Below are positions 2,791-37,474 of a stretch of 48,480 nucleotides of DNA, piece after piece (the first letter of the stretch is position 1; each line of letters starts with the position of its first letter). The DNA is from Thermodesulfobacteriota bacterium (GTDB taxonomy: Bacteria > Desulfobacterota > BSN033 > WVXP01 > G020346125): assembly GCA_030145085.1 (NCBI GenBank), contig JAQYWG010000004.1:1-48480 (forward strand), read 5' to 3'. The notes under the pieces are model-generated. The model was not told the DNA's origin. It was given only the letters and a program-made list of their open reading frames with translations, and did no database searches. Position numbers and translations under genes: made by a program.

Positions 2791-3483
2791 TTAAGACCCT
2801 GATGCTTCCCTTGGCATAAAACGAACCATAACCTGATCCTCAAGGGTTTGATGGATCTCCAGGAAGAATTCCTCAAACTCCTTTGTCGTCAAAGCATCGA
2901 GAAAGGATTGGATATCGCCGGCTAATTCAATGTCCATGGTGAACTCTCCTGTCATCACGGACCGAAGTTGAACCCCCCTGACGAATTCAAGCCCTTCCCT
3001 CAGGAAATCCTCAAATTCCCTATACCAAGGATACCGAGAGACCTCAGCGAGGACCATTCGGATGCGGACAATCTCCTCCTGGACGACCTTCTCCCCCAAT
3101 AAGCCCAGAGCCGACAGCGAATCCTTCAATTTATGGAGGTCCACCTGAGCTTGCAACAATACCTCATGCCCATCATCCCTCCCTGTCTCGGAGAGAATCT
3201 TGAAGGTTTGCACGTATTGGGTCACCCGGCTGAAGATCTCCATGTTCAGCGTAACGGTATTCTCTTCAAGCATGGGTGCTGTAATAAACTCCAGCAGAGA
3301 GATCCGTACCGCCTCCTTGAGGGCATTTAGAATTGCATCTTGACGGGCCCTCCCGACGTTCCCCGCAACCATTTCCCCAGACCCCACTACCATCAGTTCC
3401 TTTACCTGGGGCAATTCCGTGGCCGAAAGGTCTATTATCACGGCCACAATCAATAAACCAACAATGATAACAATCCTTTTCAT
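2791..3483 (-). CDS. Secreted FlgT-N-like protein of unknown function
   Basis: A 230-residue protein with an N-terminal signal sequence: basic MKR, then a hydrophobic stretch to about residue 19, with possible cleavage after the Ala-Thr region near residue 22. Just after this, VVGSGEMVAGNVGRARQDA followed by ILNALKEAV follows the 'G.....g....AR..Al..Al..Av' pattern seen in the N-terminal domain of the flagellar assembly protein FlgT and related periplasmic proteins. The remainder is predicted mixed alpha/beta without a motif I recognise. No flagellar gene is near. It starts nine bases after the scpA stop and is probably cotranscribed with scpA, in the place where scpB often lies. Function is not assigned. 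Confidence 0.75.
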   Translation of the reverse strand: MKRIVIIVGLLIVAVIIDLSATELPQVKELMVVGSGEMVAGNVGRARQDAILNALKEAVRISLLEFITAPMLEENTVTLNMEIFSRVTQYVQTFKILSETGRDDGHEVLLQAQVDLHKLKDSLSALGLLGEKVVQEEIVRIRMVLAEVSRYPWYREFEDFLREGLEFVRGVQLRSVMTGEFTMDIELAGDIQSFLDALTTKEFEEFFLEIHQTLEDQVMVRFMPREASGS

Positions 3484-3492
3484 GGATTTCCC

Positions 3493-4215
3493 CTACCCTC
3501 CCGAGAGGGCGAAAATCTCTATCGGTCCAAATGGAGTCCTTTGATAAACCTTAATCATCCTCATTTTGATCAATTCCAAAAGAGCGAGGAAGGTGAGAAT
3601 AATATCCTCCTTGGACGATGCCCCGGAAAAGAGCGACGAGAAGAGAAGTCCATTCTTTTCCAATTTGACCGCCTCCAGAATTTGGGCGATCCGCTCCTCT
3701 ATCGTTATCCGATCCAGGGTAATATCATAGGCCGCTTCGATGGAGGCCCGATTCAAAACATCCTTGAGGGCCTCGATCAGTTCGAAAACCCCGATCTCAA
3801 CTAGTCTCCTATCTTCAGATCCCTCTGCTTGATTTCCCTGCACGAAGATATCCCTTTCCAACATATCCCTCTCATGGAATCGAGCAGCCGCTTCCTTGTA
3901 TTTCTGATATTCCAATAGCCTGTTCACCAGCTCTGCCCTCGGGTCTTCCCCCCCTTCTTCCTCCCCTTCGGGCGGTAATGGCAACAATGTCTTCGATTTT
4001 ATTTGGAGCAAGGTCGCCGCCATCAAAAGGAATTCACCGGCAACATCCAAGTTGAGACTCCTCATCATGCTGAGATAATCCAGGTATTGGTCTGTGATCG
4101 TGGCGATGGGAATATCGTATATGTCTACCTGGTTCCGTCTGATGAGGTGCAAGAGAAGGTCCAAGGGGCCCTCGAAAATCTCCAATTTTACCGTGTATGG
4201 ATCTACAGTAACCAT
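3493..4215 (-). CDS. scpA: Segregation and condensation protein ScpA (kleisin)
   Basis: ScpA is the kleisin subunit that bridges the heads of the SMC dimer in bacterial condensin. The N-terminal signature VKLEIFEGPLDLLLHLIRR, followed by VDIYDIPIATIT, is diagnostic. LLMAATLLQIKSKTLLP and the C-terminal winged helix (TFLALLELIKMRMI) complete the family pattern at 240 residues, the usual length. It lies 35 bases downstream of the M50 protease gene and nine bases upstream of the secreted FlgT-N-like gene. No scpB follows within the window, although scpA-scpB is the common arrangement. The start at 4215 has only a weak ribosome binding site, but the conserved motif begins within ten residues of it. 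Confidence 0.95.
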   Translation of the reverse strand: MVTVDPYTVKLEIFEGPLDLLLHLIRRNQVDIYDIPIATITDQYLDYLSMMRSLNLDVAGEFLLMAATLLQIKSKTLLPLPPEGEEEGGEDPRAELVNRLLEYQKYKEAAARFHERDMLERDIFVQGNQAEGSEDRRLVEIGVFELIEALKDVLNRASIEAAYDITLDRITIEERIAQILEAVKLEKNGLLFSSLFSGASSKEDIILTFLALLELIKMRMIKVYQRTPFGPIEIFALSGG

Positions 4216-8823: not shown

Positions 8824-9060
8824 TATAATGATCTCGTAAAAAGCCATAAATCAGACGGCACAGTAAAAAGCTCCAGATGCAAGGCGCGCGAAACTTTAGG
8901 AATGAGGCGTACCTACTAGTACGCTGCAGTGACTAAAGATGAAGCGCAACGCCGCCTTTCGGCTTCGCTCAAGGCCGTGAGCCTGTCGAACGGCCTTTCG
9001 GCTTTGCTCAAGGCCGTGAGCCTGTCGAACGGCAGATGGACTTTTTACGAAGCCGTCACC
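8824..9060 (+). mobile_element. Dispersed MITE-like repeat, copy 2
   Basis: Left end ATCTCGTAAAAAGCC, right end GGACTTTTTACGAAGCCGTC (9039-9058): imperfect terminal inverted repeats shared with the copies at 2436, 14576 and 21771. Between them is the core GGAATGAGGCGTAC..GTACGCTGCAGTGAC and two tandem 39-base units, each containing CTCAAGGCCGTGAGCCTGTC. It fills the 266-base gap between xerD and dut, and its right end abuts the dut stop codon. Confidence 0.75.
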
Positions 9061-9535: not shown

Positions 9536-10795
9536 CTATCCAAAGCTCAACAGGTCTCGGGTGAGCTCCGTTTTCTCGATAGGACCCAAAACCGTTAGAC
9601 AGAACAACTCCTCTCGGAAAAGGTCCTGAGCCAATTGATTAAGCTCTTCCGAGGTGACGCCTTCGATCCCTTTGATAACCTCCTCAATGGGGATATATCT
9701 CCCGAAGTAAATCTCGTTTTGGGCCAAACGGGTCATCCAGCTATCCGAACTTTCCAGGAATAGGAGTAAATTTCCCTTGAGTTGTTCTTTAACCCGCTTC
9801 AGCTCTTCCTCATGAATCATCTCCCTTCGTAATTTATCGAACTGTTCCATGATCAATCGAATAACCTCCTTCAATGATCCTTTCTCAGTTCCCGCATATA
9901 CCACCAGTTGGCCCGCATCGTAATAGGCCGGCCTATAGGAATATACTGAATAGGCGAGGCCCCGCTTCTCCCGGATCTCCTGAAAGAGATAAGAGCTCAT
10001 GCCCCTTCCCAGAAGGGTATTGAGGATATAACTGGCAAATCGCATGGAATGGGTTTGGGGAATGCCTTTGGTGCCCAAACAGAGGTGAACCTGTTCCAAA
10101 TCCCTTGGAAACACCCCGATTCGGGGACTGGGCTCCGGGGATTTTCCTTTTCCCAGCTCCACCCTCTCGTGTAACCCACCGAATTTATCCTCGATCCGCT
10201 GGATCACCTCCGCGTGGTCAAAACTGCCAGCCATGGATATAATGAGGTGGTTGGATCGATAGTGATCATCGAAGTAGCGGCAAATGGTCTCTCGATCGAA
10301 GGAACTAACCCGCTCCTTCTTTCCCACGATGGGGTACCCCAGGGAATGCCCCCCCCAGAAAACCTGATTAAACAGGTCATGGATATAGTCATCGGGCGTA
10401 TCCTCCACCATTTTAATCTCCTGGAGGACTACGTTCCTTTCCCTTTCGATCTCATTGGGATCAAAGATAGAGTTCAAAAAGATATCTGAGAGGACCTCGA
10501 GGGCAAGGGGGCAATGTTGATCCAACACCTTTGCGTGAAAACAGGTATACTCCTTTTCCGTAAACCCATTGAGGACGCCCCCCACCGAGTCGATCTCTTT
10601 GGCTATATCGTGGGCGCTTCGACTCTCCGTTCCCTTGAAGACCAGGTGCTCAATGAAATGGGAAATCCCCTTTTCCTCGGAATCCTCTTCGCGCGATCCC
10701 GTAGTGATCCAAATCCCGATGGAAATCGACCTGATATGGGGGATGTTCTCCGAGACGACGCGGACTCCATTTTTCAGGACGGTCTTTTGATACAT
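9536..10795 (-). CDS. M16 family zinc protease (processing peptidase-like)
   Basis: A 419-residue insulinase-family peptidase. The inverted zinc motif HFIEH (HxxEH) near residue 46 and the distal Glu in the region around NGFTEKEYTCFHAKVL are present, so this is an active-type beta subunit. The C-terminal half has the second M16 fold with GLAYSVYSYRPAY, typical of the bacterial homologues of mitochondrial processing peptidase. There is no signal sequence, so it is probably cytoplasmic. ATG 10795 has AGGAG just upstream. The gene is 16 bases downstream of pnp and 12 bases upstream of dut. The pnp-M16-dut order is seen in several bacterial phyla. The physiological substrate is unknown. Confidence 0.92.
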   Translation of the reverse strand: MYQKTVLKNGVRVVSENIPHIRSISIGIWITTGSREEDSEEKGISHFIEHLVFKGTESRSAHDIAKEIDSVGGVLNGFTEKEYTCFHAKVLDQHCPLALEVLSDIFLNSIFDPNEIERERNVVLQEIKMVEDTPDDYIHDLFNQVFWGGHSLGYPIVGKKERVSSFDRETICRYFDDHYRSNHLIISMAGSFDHAEVIQRIEDKFGGLHERVELGKGKSPEPSPRIGVFPRDLEQVHLCLGTKGIPQTHSMRFASYILNTLLGRGMSSYLFQEIREKRGLAYSVYSYRPAYYDAGQLVVYAGTEKGSLKEVIRLIMEQFDKLRREMIHEEELKRVKEQLKGNLLLFLESSDSWMTRLAQNEIYFGRYIPIEEVIKGIEGVTSEELNQLAQDLFREELFCLTVLGPIEKTELTRDLLSFG

Positions 10796-10811
10796 CTCCT
10801 AAAGTGAGTTC

Positions 10812-12917
10812 TCATTTTTGATTAGTCTCTTTATCATACCCCTGTTTCAGTGCCGCCTTGCGACTCAACCGAATTCGACCATTGGGTTCGATTCCAAGCA
10901 CCTTCACCAACACCTCATCGCCTTCTTTCAGGATATCCGAGACGCTCTCCACGCGGTGCTCTGCAAGCTGCGAGATGTGAACCAACCCGTCGGTTCCCGG
11001 AAAGAGCTCTACAATGGCACCGAAGTCCAATATTCGCTTCACATGGCCCAAATAGAGCCGGCCCACTTCCACCTCCTGGGTGAGCCTCTTGATGATCGCT
11101 ATAGCCTCTTCGATGGCTTCATGACTGGGCGATGCGATTTTGACCAGATCCGGGTCCTCGATTTCGATCTTGACCCCGGTTTGGTCGACGATACTCCGGA
11201 TGTTCTTACCTCCGGGACCAATGATATCCCGAATCTTGTCCGGTTTCACCTGAAGAGTGATGATCCTCGGAGCGTGCCGGGAAAGGTCCTTCCTGGGTTC
11301 TGGAATCGTCTCCCGCATCTTTTTTAGGATATGGAGCCTTCCCTCCTTGGCCTGGCGTAAGACTTGCCTCAGCAATTCTCGGGTCAGACCCGACCCCTTG
11401 ATGTCCATTTGCACTGCGGTTATTCCCTCCTGCGTTCCGGCTACTTTAAAATCCATATCACCAATGTGATCTTCGTCGCCCAAAATATCGGAGAGAACAG
11501 CCACCCTGTCCCCCTCCTTGACCAGTCCCATGGCAATCCCAGCAACGGTATCGGTGGTCGGAACCCCCGCATCCATAAGAGCAAGCATTCCGCCACATAC
11601 CGTCGCCATGGAAGAGGATCCGTTGGACTCCAAAACCTCGGAAACTACCCGAATGGTATAGGGGAATGTGTCGCTGGGAGGCAGAACGGGTAGTATTGCC
11701 CTTTCGGCTAGGGCCCCATGGCCGACCTCCCTTCGGTTTGGTGACCTGAGGGGTGAAACCTCACCGACACAAAAGGGAGGAAAATTGTAATGGAGCATGA
11801 ACGATTTATAGCTTTCCCCGCTCAGCGAATCGATCTTCTGTTCATCGGATGAGGTCCCAAAGGTGGTGACGGCCAATACTTGCGTTTCACCTCGGGTGAA
11901 AATGGCCGACCCGTGAGTTCGGGGAAGAATGCCTACCTCGCAGGAGATGGGCCTGATCTCAGAAAGGTCCCTTCCATCTATTCTTCTTCCCTCGCTCAGG
12001 ATCATCCCCCTGATAAACTGCCTTTCCGTCTCCGCGATGACCGCCCTGACTTCCACCCCGAACTCTTCATCTTCGCCAGCAAATTTCTCCATTGCGGCCT
12101 CGAGGATCTCTCCCAACCTTCGCCTCCTTTCCAATTTCCCCGAAATGGCATGGGCCTCCTTTATTTTGGGAAGGACAAAGGAGTGAATCTGCTCCCCCAC
12201 CGCCTCATTTCTCCCGGGCGTAAATTCAGTCTTACCGATATTCAACTCATCCCTCAGCCTCTCTTGTACTTCGATCACACCTTGGAGATGATCATAGCCG
12301 AAGAAGATAGCCTCCAGGATATCGTCTTCATTGCCCACCTGCGCGCTTCCTTCGACCATGATTACGCCATCTCGATTTCCCGCCACCAGGAGGTCCATGT
12401 TGCTCATCTCCAACTCGCTATTGGTGGGATTACATTTGTATTCCCCGTTTATCCTTCCCACCTTTACTCCCCCAAGGGGACCATTGAAGGGAATATCCGA
12501 GACCATCAGAGCTGCCGAAGCCCCGATCATCCCTATGGCGGCGGGATCATTCTCTTGATCTGCGGACATGACGGTGGCGATAATCTGTGTTTCCCTGTTA
12601 AAACCCTTGGGGAGAAGGGGTCGTATGGGACGATCGATAAGCCTCGAAATGAGGGTTTCTCGGTCGCTGGGCCTCCCCTCCCTCTTGAAAAAACCGCCGG
12701 GTATGCGACCGGCGGCGAAGGTCATCTCGAGGTAGTTCACGGTAAGGGGGATAAAATCTATGTTCTTTCTCTCCTCCTCGCTACATACAGCGGTTACCAG
12801 GACTATCGTCTCTCCGTACTGAACGGCCACCGCGCCATTGGCCTGCTTTGCTATTTTCCCCGTCTCAATGGAGAGGGTTCTGCCGCCAAATTCAATAGAC
12901 ATTTTCCGTTCCATCAT
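10812..12917 (-). CDS. pnp: Polyribonucleotide nucleotidyltransferase (PNPase)
   Basis: PNPase degrades RNA 3' to 5' with phosphate and can add nucleotides in reverse. The 701-residue protein has two RNase PH domains (about 10-230 and 310-545) joined by a helical linker, then a KH domain with GPGGKNIR and an S1 domain (VGRLYLGHVKRILDFGAIVE..). Phosphate-binding and catalytic segments of the second RNase PH core are conserved (GTSSDEQ, GDEDHIGDMDFKVAGT). Several near start codons exist; ATG 12917 is taken, with MSIEFGG five residues later as the alternative. It lies 43 bases downstream of rpsO, a classic coupled pair, and belongs to the long operon starting at rimP. Confidence 0.97.
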   Translation of the reverse strand: MMERKMSIEFGGRTLSIETGKIAKQANGAVAVQYGETIVLVTAVCSEEERKNIDFIPLTVNYLEMTFAAGRIPGGFFKREGRPSDRETLISRLIDRPIRPLLPKGFNRETQIIATVMSADQENDPAAIGMIGASAALMVSDIPFNGPLGGVKVGRINGEYKCNPTNSELEMSNMDLLVAGNRDGVIMVEGSAQVGNEDDILEAIFFGYDHLQGVIEVQERLRDELNIGKTEFTPGRNEAVGEQIHSFVLPKIKEAHAISGKLERRRRLGEILEAAMEKFAGEDEEFGVEVRAVIAETERQFIRGMILSEGRRIDGRDLSEIRPISCEVGILPRTHGSAIFTRGETQVLAVTTFGTSSDEQKIDSLSGESYKSFMLHYNFPPFCVGEVSPLRSPNRREVGHGALAERAILPVLPPSDTFPYTIRVVSEVLESNGSSSMATVCGGMLALMDAGVPTTDTVAGIAMGLVKEGDRVAVLSDILGDEDHIGDMDFKVAGTQEGITAVQMDIKGSGLTRELLRQVLRQAKEGRLHILKKMRETIPEPRKDLSRHAPRIITLQVKPDKIRDIIGPGGKNIRSIVDQTGVKIEIEDPDLVKIASPSHEAIEEAIAIIKRLTQEVEVGRLYLGHVKRILDFGAIVELFPGTDGLVHISQLAEHRVESVSDILKEGDEVLVKVLGIEPNGRIRLSRKAALKQGYDKETNQK

Positions 12918-14575: not shown

Positions 14576-14808
14576 TTGACGGCTTCGTAAGAAGTCCATC
14601 TGCCGTTCGACATGCTCACGGCCCTGAGAAAAGCCGAAGGGCCGTTCGAGATGCTCACGGCCTTGAGCAAAGCCGAAAGGCTGTGTTGCGCTGCATCCTT
14701 CGTCATTGCAGCGTACTTCTCTGTACGCTCATTTCTCAGGATTTGCGCTCCTTGCATCTGGATTTTTTTTCTTTGCCGTCTGATCCCGACTTTTTACAAT
14801 GATGTCAA
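14576..14808 (-). mobile_element. Dispersed MITE-like repeat, copy 3, inside the nusA-pnp superoperon
   Basis: The clearest copy, 233 bases. The left end is TTGACGGCTTCGTAAGAAGT and the right end, read on the minus strand, is TTGACATCATTGTAAAAAGT. These are terminal inverted repeats matching at most positions. Inside are two variant 39-base units (GCTCACGGCCCTGAGAAAAG, then GCTCACGGCCTTGAGCAAAG) and the core GCAGCGTACTTCTCTGTACG. It lies between ylxP and rbfA with no other gene in the gap. Confidence 0.8.
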
Positions 14809-27786: not shown

Positions 27787-27939
27787 GAAGGATTCAAGGG
27801 GTCAAGGGTTCAAGGATTCAAGTGAAATGATTAAAATCGGAGTGATAGAGGAGAGGTTGAAAGGATGCTCAAGGCACCAATAAAGTCTCTAGAAAATAAA
27901 CACTTGGATCCTTGAATCCTCGAATCCTTGGCCCCTTTC
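27787..27939. repeat. Inverted pair of 8-bp tandem repeats
   Basis: The left arm 27787-27824 is made of four GGNTTCAA-like octamers (GGATTCAA, GGGGTCAA, GGGTTCAA, GGATTCAA). The right arm 27901-27939 is the inverse (TTGGATCC, TTGAATCC, TCGAATCC, TTGGCCCC). The arms are separated by 76 bases and could form a long imperfect stem. Confidence 0.8.
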
Positions 27940-28056
27940 TTCCACCTCATTGGGATAAGAACCAGAAATATTTATGTCGTCATATATGAATATTACATCT
28001 CCTGACCCATGGGGCCCTCTACAAAGCCATCGATGGCCCTTTCCCTTATGGATCCC

Positions 28057-29031
28057 TTAGGAAAAATCCGACCGCGCGATCTTCACCGTGAGATAAAGAT
28101 CCCCGCGTTCCCCATGGGGGGAGCTCCGGCCCATACCCCGAAGCCTGAGGCGGGTTCCATCGCCAATATCCGGGGGAATCGTGACCACAACCGTCCTTCT
28201 TCTATGCGGAATGCTGACGAACTTGCGGGCTCCCAAGAGGGCCTCCCGTGGTGTAATAGCAATGGTCCCGTGGGTATCAAGGTCTTTCCCCTTAAAGGGA
28301 CGGATATTTTGAAGCCGTGGCGTACTTCTCCGTTGTAGTGAATGGGCGAGCTTCTGGCTGATCCCGGTTCTCGGAAGGGCAAAAAAGAGCTTGACGGTAA
28401 CCAAACCGAAGATGAATCCCCCTATGTGAGCCCACCAGGCGACCCCACCCGCCTGTCCGTGGCTCACCGATGCGTAAAAGAATTGGATTAAAACCCAGTA
28501 GCCCAAGAAGAAGACGGCCGGCAACTCGAATATATAGGGAAAGAAGAATATGGGAATCATGGTGAGAACCCGTGAACGGGGGAATAGGAGAAAATAGGCA
28601 CCCATAACGCCGGCAATGGCACCACTGGCCCCTATGGTTGGGAGAGGGGAATGCCAGTTGGTCGCGAGATGGATCGACACAGCGGCAATTCCGCTCAGGA
28701 TATAGAATGCGAGAAAACGGGATGGTCCCAGCCTGTCTTCCACGTTGTCCCCAAAGATATAGAGAAACCACATGTTCCCCAGCAGGTGGAGAAATCCGCC
28801 ATGGAGGAACATATAGCTGAAGAATGGAACCACCTGTGTCAGGATGGTGAAGTCACCCGAGATCCCTGGGTCTGAGTATCGAATCGGAACCACGCCATAG
28901 AGGAAAAGGATCCTTTTGAGATAGGGCCCCTGGGCCAATTGCCAGAGGAACACGAGGACATTGATGCCGATGATGATGTTTCTGATGATGGGGTAGGTCT
29001 TTGACTGGATCGTATCGCGTAAGGGAATCAC
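28057..29031 (-). CDS. Rhomboid intramembrane serine protease fused to a DnaJ-type C-terminal domain
   Basis: A 324-residue membrane protein. Residues 1-220 are a six-helix rhomboid core: oxyanion-side Asn86 in HLLGNMWFL, nucleophile Ser136 in IGASGAIAG and catalytic His202 in AHIGGFIFG. After a basic linker, residues 255-318 (GTIAITPREALLGARKFVSI, then TIPPDIGDGTRLRLRGMG and RGDLYLTVKI) match the second substrate-binding barrel of DnaJ/Hsp40 proteins, with the usual Ala-Leu-Leu-Gly, 'IPP...G..LRLrGkG' and 'GDLyv.v.v' signatures. No J domain or zinc finger is present. With six helices and a cytoplasmic N terminus the C-terminal domain should be cytoplasmic. The start is GTG 29031 after GAAGGG. 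The domain calls are firm; a role in membrane-protein quality control is inference. Confidence 0.88.
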   Translation of the reverse strand: MIPLRDTIQSKTYPIIRNIIIGINVLVFLWQLAQGPYLKRILFLYGVVPIRYSDPGISGDFTILTQVVPFFSYMFLHGGFLHLLGNMWFLYIFGDNVEDRLGPSRFLAFYILSGIAAVSIHLATNWHSPLPTIGASGAIAGVMGAYFLLFPRSRVLTMIPIFFFPYIFELPAVFFLGYWVLIQFFYASVSHGQAGGVAWWAHIGGFIFGLVTVKLFFALPRTGISQKLAHSLQRRSTPRLQNIRPFKGKDLDTHGTIAITPREALLGARKFVSIPHRRRTVVVTIPPDIGDGTRLRLRGMGRSSPHGERGDLYLTVKIARSDFS

Positions 29032-29196: not shown

Positions 29197-29225
29197 AGCA
29201 TAGGGCACCTCCCCGACATTGTCAA
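29197..29225 (-). promoter_or_regulatory. Probable promoter of the rhomboid gene
   Basis: On the minus strand TTGACA (29225-29220), a 17-base spacer and TATGCT (29202-29197). The transcript would carry a roughly 160-base leader before the rhomboid start. Confidence 0.55.
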
Positions 29226-35107: not shown

Positions 35108-37417
35108 CTATATATCAAAGTCCTCTCCCTTCTTGATTTTTTCCAACCGCTGTATCTCCTTCTGAATGGCCTCTTCTGCCATTTTAGGTACTATTTTCTG
35201 GACCGTTTTTTCGATCCTCTCGGCGGCGGCGGCGGCAATGGCCTCTGTCAATTGAGGAAGGATTTTTGCGCTCATGCCTTCTACCAATTCCTTGATCGCT
35301 CCGGAGATCGTCTCTGGAACCGGTCTCTCCGGAGAGGGTTGAAGCCCCGTTTCCTCTTCCCCTCTCACCGTCTCCCCGGTAAATTCCTCGATAGCCTCCG
35401 CTAAAGCACCTTCCGGAATTTCCTCCTTCTCCTGGTCCCTCGTAACCTCCTCGGCTATCTTTTCCAGTTCCCCCTCCTTGAAAACCTCCTCATAAAACTC
35501 CTCCAGTCCCTCTTTCTCCAAACCTTTTTCGCCAAAAGCTTGCAGATCTTCTTCATTCAAGACCTTCTCGGCTAAACCCTCCAAATCCATCTCATGAGAA
35601 ACCTCTTGGGGTAGCCCCTCCAGCTCCTCCCCGGGCAACTGTTCTCCGGGGAGCTCTTCCAATTCTCCCTCTTTAAGGATCTCCCCAGGCAATTCCTTTA
35701 ATGCCTCTTCCAAGGCCCCCTCTTCATCCCTCCCTCCATCAGTCTTTTCCCCCAACTCCTCTAATCCTCCAAGTTCCTCTATGGATACATTTCCTTCGGG
35801 AAGCTTTTCCGCCTTCCCTTCTTCAGGGGCCTCCCGATGTAATTCCTTTAATGCCTCTTCCAGAGCTCCCTCTTCATCCCTCACTACATCAGTCTTTTCC
35901 CCCAACTCCTCTAATCCTCCAAGTTCCTCTATGGATACATTTCCTCCGGGAAGTTCTTCCAATTCTCCCTCTTTAACCACCTCCCCAGGCAATTCCTTTA
36001 ATGCCTCTTCCAGGGCTCCCTCTTCCTCCCTCGGCACTCCAGCTTCCCTCCCCAGCTCCCCCAATCCCTCTAGCTCCGCCTTTCCCTCATCCGGGGTATC
36101 CTCCAATTCCCTGGAGGTCTCTTTTGGCTCCTCCTCTCCGAGGAAATCCCCCGGTAATTCCTCGATCTCCTCCGCCAGGGCCTCCTCTAAGCCCTTCCCC
36201 TTCAGGATATCCTGGGGCAATTCTCCCATTCCCTCGGTGGGAACCTCCTCCGTACTCTCTTCAGCTCCAAGTTCCCCTCTTGCAGGTTCAGAAATCTCCT
36301 CGAGTGGAGGTTGTTCCCCCTCCTCCGCAAAGGCCTCTTCCAAGCCCTTCCCCTTCAGGATATCCTGGGGCAATTCTCCCATTCCCTCGGTAGGAAGCTC
36401 CTCCGTACTCTCTTCAGCTCCAAGTTCCCCTCTTGCAGGTTCAGAAATCTCCTCGAGTGGCGGTTGTTCCCCCTCCTCCGCAAAGGCCTCTTCCAAGCCC
36501 TTCCCCTTCAGGATATCCTGGAGCAATTCTCCCATTTCCTCGGTGGGAACCTCCTCCACACTCTCTTCAGCTCCGAATCCTCCTCTTTCAGGTTCAAAAG
36601 TCCCCTCCGGTGGACCCGGATATTGTTCTTCAGTGCCACTGACCTTGCCAATACCCTCTTCGGAGGAAATCTCACCCTCCGTCACAGCCGGCTCCGTCTT
36701 GACATCCACCTTCTCAGGGACCCCAGGCTCCGGAGCGGGCCCTTCCATCTCCGGGGCTTGGATTGCTTCCTCGGCCTTTGGGAATTCCATATCCTCCGCT
36801 AACTCGAGATCGGCCAGGGCACTCTCCTCCACAAGTCCCCCTCCCTCCGATTCCCGCGTTTCTACACCTTTCATAGCTTCTCCGGGAACTTCAGCAGGGG
36901 CTTCTTCAGCTCTGGCCACCGGTTCCTCGATGATATCCAATAGGTCAATGATCTCCTCCTCTCCCTGGGAACTCACCGCTTCGGTCACCTCCGCCATGGG
37001 TTGCAACTCCAGGATCTCCTCCTTAACCTCCCTTGACGCCTCAACTGGTCGAGGCGTCAGCAATCCATCCACCAGTTTTAGAATAGGTTCCCCCTGCAGG
37101 GGTTTCGTTATGGCCCCATTGGCCCTCACCTGTTTCTTTTCCTCTTCGATATCCTCATCGAAAGGGCCTCCCAAAAGCACAAAGGGGATTTTATTCAGAT
37201 TAGGGTCTCCTTTAAGCATCTCGCAGAGTTCTTTCCCATTCTTATCGGGCATGGTGACATCGGCAATGACGAGGGCCGGTTTGGACAATTTCATCTTCAG
37301 GAGGGCATCTTCGCCGTTTTCGGAAAAGATGAGATTGTAATCGGTTTCCTTGAAGATCTCTTCGAAGGCCTTATGAGCTGCCTTGTTACCATCGGCAATG
37401 AGAATCTCCCTTGCCAT
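35108..37417 (-). CDS. Receiver-domain protein with long Glu-rich repeat region and helical C terminus
   Basis: A 769-residue protein. Residues 1-120 form a CheY-like receiver with phosphoacceptor Asp53 (VIADVTMPDKNG) and Lys105. The acidic pair is reduced to Asp9-Gly10, and the usual Thr/Ser is Gly83, so phosphorylation chemistry may be altered. Residues about 130-690 are very rich in Glu, Pro and Gly and predicted disordered, with two tandem arrays: three 51-residue units (DILKGKGLEEAFAEEGEQ) and three 50-residue units (EEGALEEALKELPGE). The last 70 residues (PQLTEAIAAAAAERIEKTVQ, then PKMAEEAIQKEIQRLE) look like conserved amphipathic helices. The plan resembles the myxobacterial polarity protein RomR (receiver, Pro/Glu-rich, helical end); this is inference only. 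ATG 37417 has GGAGG upstream. Confidence 0.8.
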   Translation of the reverse strand: MAREILIADGNKAAHKAFEEIFKETDYNLIFSENGEDALLKMKLSKPALVIADVTMPDKNGKELCEMLKGDPNLNKIPFVLLGGPFDEDIEEEKKQVRANGAITKPLQGEPILKLVDGLLTPRPVEASREVKEEILELQPMAEVTEAVSSQGEEEIIDLLDIIEEPVARAEEAPAEVPGEAMKGVETRESEGGGLVEESALADLELAEDMEFPKAEEAIQAPEMEGPAPEPGVPEKVDVKTEPAVTEGEISSEEGIGKVSGTEEQYPGPPEGTFEPERGGFGAEESVEEVPTEEMGELLQDILKGKGLEEAFAEEGEQPPLEEISEPARGELGAEESTEELPTEGMGELPQDILKGKGLEEAFAEEGEQPPLEEISEPARGELGAEESTEEVPTEGMGELPQDILKGKGLEEALAEEIEELPGDFLGEEEPKETSRELEDTPDEGKAELEGLGELGREAGVPREEEGALEEALKELPGEVVKEGELEELPGGNVSIEELGGLEELGEKTDVVRDEEGALEEALKELHREAPEEGKAEKLPEGNVSIEELGGLEELGEKTDGGRDEEGALEEALKELPGEILKEGELEELPGEQLPGEELEGLPQEVSHEMDLEGLAEKVLNEEDLQAFGEKGLEKEGLEEFYEEVFKEGELEKIAEEVTRDQEKEEIPEGALAEAIEEFTGETVRGEEETGLQPSPERPVPETISGAIKELVEGMSAKILPQLTEAIAAAAAERIEKTVQKIVPKMAEEAIQKEIQRLEKIKKGEDFDI
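35691..36140. repeat. Tandem repeat, 150-bp period, three copies, within the receiver gene
   Basis: The marker AATTCCTTTA recurs at 35691, 35841 and 35991 on the plus strand, exactly 150 bases apart. Each unit encodes 50 residues (EEGALEEALKEL..NVSIEELGGLEELGEK). Copies differ by scattered substitutions but keep frame. Confidence 0.9.
36170..36640. repeat. Tandem repeat, 153-bp period, three copies, within the receiver gene
   Basis: AAGCCCTTCCCC occurs at 36189, 36342 and 36495, exactly 153 bases apart, giving 51-residue units (DILKGKGLEEAFAEEGEQ..). The first two copies are nearly identical, so the expansion looks recent. Confidence 0.92.
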
Positions 37418-37474
37418 GATCAACCCTCCTTGACTGGGGTGGAAAAAGTTGAGGGAAAATCTAAATTTATAACA

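Follow-up and report, generated by a model that had tools for sequence, protein, structure and literature searches.

GlpG of E. coli and H. influenzae is a rhomboid protease with six transmembrane (TM) helices, a Ser/His dyad, and a C terminus on the inside. GlpG is reported to act in the quality control of orphan membrane proteins and subunits (PMC7232013). YqgP of B. subtilis is a rhomboid with an N-terminal metal-binding cytosolic domain and an extracellular C-terminal TPR domain; the cytosolic domain is needed for the regulated cleavage of MgtE and for the FtsH adaptor role, so that an extramembrane domain aids cleavage and hand-over (PMC7231995). Class B J-domain proteins (CbpA, Sis1, DNAJB1, and T. 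thermophilus DnaJ2) possess a CTD1 beta-sandwich with a conserved EA..G..K motif and a client groove.

The window, the whole 48,480-nucleotide stretch of DNA analyzed here, encodes a protein in which a rhomboid core is followed in the same frame by a DnaJ C-terminal (DnaJ_C) tail. The six-TM fold and the Ser/His dyad are shared with GlpG, and so, by prediction, is the internal C terminus. However, GlpG has no DnaJ_C tail and is only ~16 to 22% identical in fold matches, and its small N-terminal cytosolic domain has an unrelated fold. Like YqgP, the protein combines a rhomboid with an extramembrane domain, but neither YqgP domain is DnaJ-like, and the YqgP-type N-terminal metal-binding domain is absent from the fusion, in which TM1 of the model starts at residue 15. 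The tail resembles the CTD1 of class B J-domain proteins, the EA..G..K motif included, but the fusion lacks their J domain, G/F region, CTD2, and dimerization segment and is anchored in the membrane by a protease. The nearest relatives of the core, up to ~60% identical, are "MIPLRD" rhomboids of other Desulfobacterota, Deferrisomatales, and Brocadia, which, unlike the fusion, stop shortly after TM6.

Both domains are well known, but their combination is apparently undescribed. The earlier note knew of no system with this layout, and we found no description of one in the literature searched, which was mostly non-subscription; a recent rhomboid review does not mention DnaJ. Domain-architecture databases may list the combination.

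Architecture and topology of the fusion protein

An uninterrupted minus-strand open reading frame (ORF) with a GTG start encodes the 324-amino-acid protein (Table 1). Homologues begin with MIPxRD at the same position as this GTG. A Pfam search returned Rhomboid and DnaJ_C and nothing else, and sub-threshold NCBIfam matches agreed, the tail matching DnaJ models and the core rhomboid models. The rhomboid core read in the earlier note from Asn86, Ser136, and His202 was recovered with these residues at exactly those positions. Asn86 is presumably the oxyanion-type asparagine of rhomboids, Ser136 is taken to be the catalytic serine of the GxSG type, and His202 is presumably the catalytic histidine. 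The note's DnaJ_C assignment of the tail was borne out above the curated cut-off, as was the lack of a J domain, with no PF00226 match and no HPD in the protein. The note had further described a DnaJ-type C-terminal barrel. Of the two C-terminal sandwiches of DnaJ, only one is present: the tail is a single beta-sandwich subdomain of ~70 amino acids, corresponding to half of PF01556, with no second CTD and no C-terminal dimerization segment, as the protein stops 6 residues past the DnaJ_C match. In the linker, Q241 is at least 90% conserved. Promoter-like consensus matches in the region numbered three, against 1.6 expected by chance; one lies upstream of the gene.

Table 1. Positions in the window of the fusion gene and its parts
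Feature	Position	Strand	Basis
Rhomboid-DnaJ_C fusion gene	28057..29031	-	ORF; 89 intact fused homologues; AlphaFold2 model
Rhomboid domain, residues 66-217	28381..28836	-	PF01694, E 8.2e-34, 117.3 bits vs curated cut-off of 22.6
Asn86, TM2	28774..28776	-	Invariant in 89 fused homologues
Ser136, GASGA, outer end of TM4	28624..28626	-	Invariant in 89 fused homologues
His202, TM6, WWAHIGGF	28426..28428	-	Invariant in 89 fused homologues
Basic linker, residues 219-250, with conserved (T)PRLQ	28282..28377	-	Charge count, conservation
DnaJ_C tail, residues 246-318	28078..28296	-	PF01556, E 6.3e-10, 39.7 bits vs curated cut-off of 26.6
Lys270, aligned with Sis1 K199 of the CTDI client/EEVD groove	28222..28224	-	Alignment
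Promoter-like TTGACA-17-TATGCT, upstream of gene	29197..29225	-	Consensus scan only

An AlphaFold2 model of the full protein, based on a 66-sequence alignment, had a mean pLDDT of 91.2 and a pTM of 0.86. It contains six TM helices (residues 15-33, 80-101, 103-124, 136-149, 172-188, and 197-218), a hairpin at 154-171, and tail strands at 240-318, with residues 322-324 of low confidence. In Foldseek searches, the full model matched GlpG (2xow, E 1.2e-6; target-normalized TM-score of GlpG matches, ~0.7) as well as DnaJ (4j80 and 3i38; best rmsd, 1.0 to 2.0 A over ~70 residues). The tail modeled alone (pLDDT 85.7) matched T. thermophilus DnaJ 4j80 with an E value of 1.4e-6, and it also matched Sis1-Ssa1 2b26, Hdj1 peptide complexes, and the single-CTD client-complex entries 6prp, 6pqm, and 6pq2. 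Single-CTD constructs of T. thermophilus DnaJ2, solved as client-peptide fusions and deposited under the title "Structural Basis for Client Recognition and Activity of Hsp40 Chaperones," are among the PDB matches of the tail.

TM4 of the model begins at Ser136, and His202 lies close to the beginning of TM6, as in GlpG; this arrangement places both the N terminus and the tail inside. Past TM6, the linker has 8 K/R versus 1 D/E (family means, 7.1 versus 2.9), whereas outer loops L3 and L5 carry almost no charge, in agreement with the positive-inside rule. The modeled N-in/C-in topology and the strongly basic linker both suggest that the tail lies on the cytosolic side, where the earlier note had placed it.

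Conservation, origin, and type of the tail

A survey of rhomboids for the same fusion, a check suggested in the earlier note, yielded 110 loci with a homologous ORF among relatives and a genome collection. The full fusion was present in one frame in 89 of these; a few are duplicates, in that two collections contributed one genome or near-identical ones (for example, the cores of L017 and L041 do not differ). Both Pfam families were matched in 66/66 aligned members, with DnaJ_C at E<=0.01. Homologues that lack the tail stop soon after TM6, at ~225 to 245 amino acids.

The fusion could in principle be an artifact, either two genes merged by a sequencing or assembly error, the frameshift joint that the earlier note had itself raised, or a chance low-complexity match. 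The source is a metagenome-assembled genome (MAG), and a few homologues (L058 and L095) have stops or frameshifts between the domains. However, intact fused ORFs with invariant catalytic residues occur in many assemblies, including those of Desulfosarcina widdelii PP31 and Desulfoluna spongiiphila AA1, and a joint of this kind was rejected. A chance match was likewise rejected: PF01556 is above its cut-off, and a profile of 63 homologous tails matched PDB DnaJ chains with an E value of 7.6e-20. The probability of an artifact is negligible.

The dN/dS of the tail (Nei-Gojobori) was 0.06 to 0.18 in most close pairs, not far above that of the rhomboid core, indicating that the tail is functional and under purifying selection; it was 0.35 in the nearest pair, which is the least informative. 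The linker was the fastest-evolving part in most pairs. Two folded, selected domains connected by a looser linker are the natural reading of this pattern.

Of 297 genomes sampled evenly across the phylum, 224 contained a rhomboid homologue (E<=1e-20). Among the matches listed, those of 38 sampled genomes ran through the tail (query end of at least 318); two further tail candidates, in G054 and G012, run into contig ends and stand outside this count. Within the best 80 genome-contig matches, fusions were found only in records named as Deltaproteobacteria or Desulfobacterota or as unresolved Proteobacteria. On a rhomboid-core tree (232 columns, 130 rows), the tail-bearing proteins fall in a single clade (SH-aLRT 99), which also includes two tail-less members, and the tail state needs three changes, one gain and two losses. 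The two losses (L110 and L146) end just past TM6, with no tail downstream in any frame. The tail is therefore not indispensable.

The tail was compared with the two CTDs of class B J-proteins from the same genomes. The tail profile scored 34 to 53 bits against CTD1 and lower against CTD2 in nearly all cases. The lysine at position 270 is present in 63/63 tails and 14/14 class B CTD1 domains but in 0/31 CTD2 domains. Sis1 CTDI SLEDLFVGKKKSFKIG, confirmed in PDB 2b26, aligns without gaps with TPREALLGARKFVSIP of the tail when the two are placed by eye on their common E(A/D)...G..K frame, so that Sis1 K199, F201, and I203 correspond to K270, V272, and I274. These Sis1 residues are in or beside client pocket II, and the Sis1 K199N/K202N/K214N mutant has lost EEVD binding (PMC11722011). 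Judged by sequence, the tail is of the client-binding CTD1 type, without the dimerizing part. An origin from CTD2 or the dimerization region was rejected on the K270 pattern and on the support (93/95) for grouping tails, single-CTD proteins, and CTD1 against CTD2.

In HMM comparisons, the closest relatives of the tail are single-CTD J-proteins (L121 to L125) from the same bacterial class and its relatives, with hhalign scores of 114.5 against these, 86.6 against CTD1, and 79.9 against CTD2. Unlike the fusion, they have a J domain (PF00226 in L121) and no protease. The tree for the tail donor has 80 columns, too few to fix the exact donor. The single-CTD proteins (L121:2184-3077, minus strand, and L122 to L125) have a long F/R-rich middle between a J domain and a single DnaJ_C subdomain, and they apparently represent a distinct J-protein type in related genomes. 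Very short J-proteins of 204 to 209 amino acids with a truncated single CTD were also seen (L010:1069-1683, plus strand, and L127:1665-2291, minus strand), one of which belongs to the window's own genome.

Two other loci have unusual gene structures. In L058:4989-5966, an in-frame stop falls exactly at the conserved Gln of TPRLQ and is followed immediately by an ATG and an intact tail, which could mean either that the two domains are naturally split or that the MAG has a point error. L126 has two rhomboid gene copies ~7 kb apart (2868-3836 and 9871-10944), and the tail reading frame of the first is lost around residue 259.

Candidate functions of the tail

Homology makes a role of the tail in binding misfolded clients or in positioning substrates plausible. 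We propose, by analogy with the accessory domain of YqgP and with the orphan-subunit quality control reported for GlpG, that it may be a cytosolic client-capture module tethering membrane-protein substrates to the protease, and we give this reading an even chance. Via its beta1/beta2 groove, the CTD would bind exposed cytosolic segments, hydrophobic or extended, of membrane proteins that have misfolded or have not been assembled, and it would hold the client beside the rhomboid gate. A transmembrane segment of the client would then be sampled and cut at the Ser136/His202 site, and the cleaved fragment would be released to cytosolic chaperone or AAA-protease machinery. The tail would thus be a built-in substrate adaptor, as the YqgP cytosolic domain is in MgtE cleavage and FtsH hand-over. 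We read the core as an active-type rhomboid and infer protease activity, peptide binding, and a quality-control role for the fusion. Several points speak against client capture: a lone CTD without CTD2 or the dimerization part would bind weakly if monomeric, no neighboring gene points to a chaperone function, two members of the clade have dispensed with the tail, and the tail alignment is short, at ~70 amino acids.

The tail might instead be a regulatory or structural module in cis that packs on the cytosolic face and gates or stabilizes the rhomboid without binding clients. The surfaces for such packing would be the N-terminal strand at residues 2-6, the hairpin at 154-171, and the linker strand at 240-242. 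The pTM of the model suggests a fairly fixed placement of the tail, its cytosolic strands could pair with the CTD edge, and the TPRLQ motif of the linker is conserved. However, tail-less homologues have both the N-terminal strand and the L4 hairpin sequence to the same extent, so these did not evolve for the tail, and the client-groove lysine is kept; we consider a cis module unlikely. In class B J-proteins, CTD1 uses the same groove to bind the EEVD tail of Hsp70 (PMC11722011), and the DnaK of the window's genome, which ends in ...DFEEVKDDQK, contains EEV. The tail could on these grounds recruit the cytosolic Hsp70 system, either DnaK or a J-protein, with clients passed between DnaK and the rhomboid. 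However, bacterial DnaK has no terminal EEVD, dnaK and dnaJ are not conserved neighbors, and the fusion cannot stimulate DnaK because it has no J domain, which makes such recruitment distinctly unlikely. The C-terminal regions of DnaJ form dimers, and CTDs are able to make sheet-edge contacts, so that the tail might drive self-association of the rhomboid or the assembly of a complex rather than substrate capture. However, DnaJ dimerizes via CTD2 and the extreme C terminus, both of which are absent here, the tail ending with a CTD1-type fold, and we regard this explanation as highly unlikely.

Client capture by the tail may define a class of self-adapting rhomboid proteases, in which a client-binding domain was captured once, in the ancestor of a large Desulfobacterota clade, as a built-in cytosolic client sensor. 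This broader proposal is tentative, and we place it somewhat short of an even chance. The logic would be analogous to that of Derlin/ERAD factors but in one bacterial polypeptide, and the fusion would take the idea of the rhomboid as a quality-control adaptor (YqgP and Derlins) as far as a gene fused directly to a chaperone part. It suggests that one molecule both catches and cuts unfolded membrane proteins in the Desulfobacterota, a large sulfate-reducer-type group in which many families have kept the fusion. To our knowledge, few bacterial rhomboids have had their substrates and rules of selection worked out. With a client-binding domain of known fold and groove on the protease, substrate capture becomes approachable through one 75-amino-acid domain, and the isolated tail could be used as bait for natural substrates.

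Gene neighborhood and other features of the window

A chaperone or FtsH gene was looked for as a conserved neighbor or operon member of the fusion gene, and none was found; the conserved neighbors include valS, nadC, and lepA. In Desulfobacteria, many loci have valS-nadC upstream of the fused gene, and some have lepA downstream of it. The fusion gene of the window also has valS, with gatC and gatA, upstream on its own strand; cutA and a flavodoxin gene lie in the interval on the opposite strand. The intergenic region downstream of the rhomboid gene (27790-27940) contains repeated words of the GGATTCAAGG type, flanked by reverse complements.

Elsewhere in the window, a minus-strand gene (35108-37423) encodes a 771-amino-acid protein in which long acidic repeats come after a receiver domain. 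The gene contains tandem arrays with periods of 150 and 153 bases at 35644-36032 and 36167-36614. A tandem 39-base unit, TCGACAGGCTCACGGCCCTGAGCAAAGCCGAAAGGC-like, occurs in several places and on both strands (2466-2540, 8954-9033, and 14602-14681).
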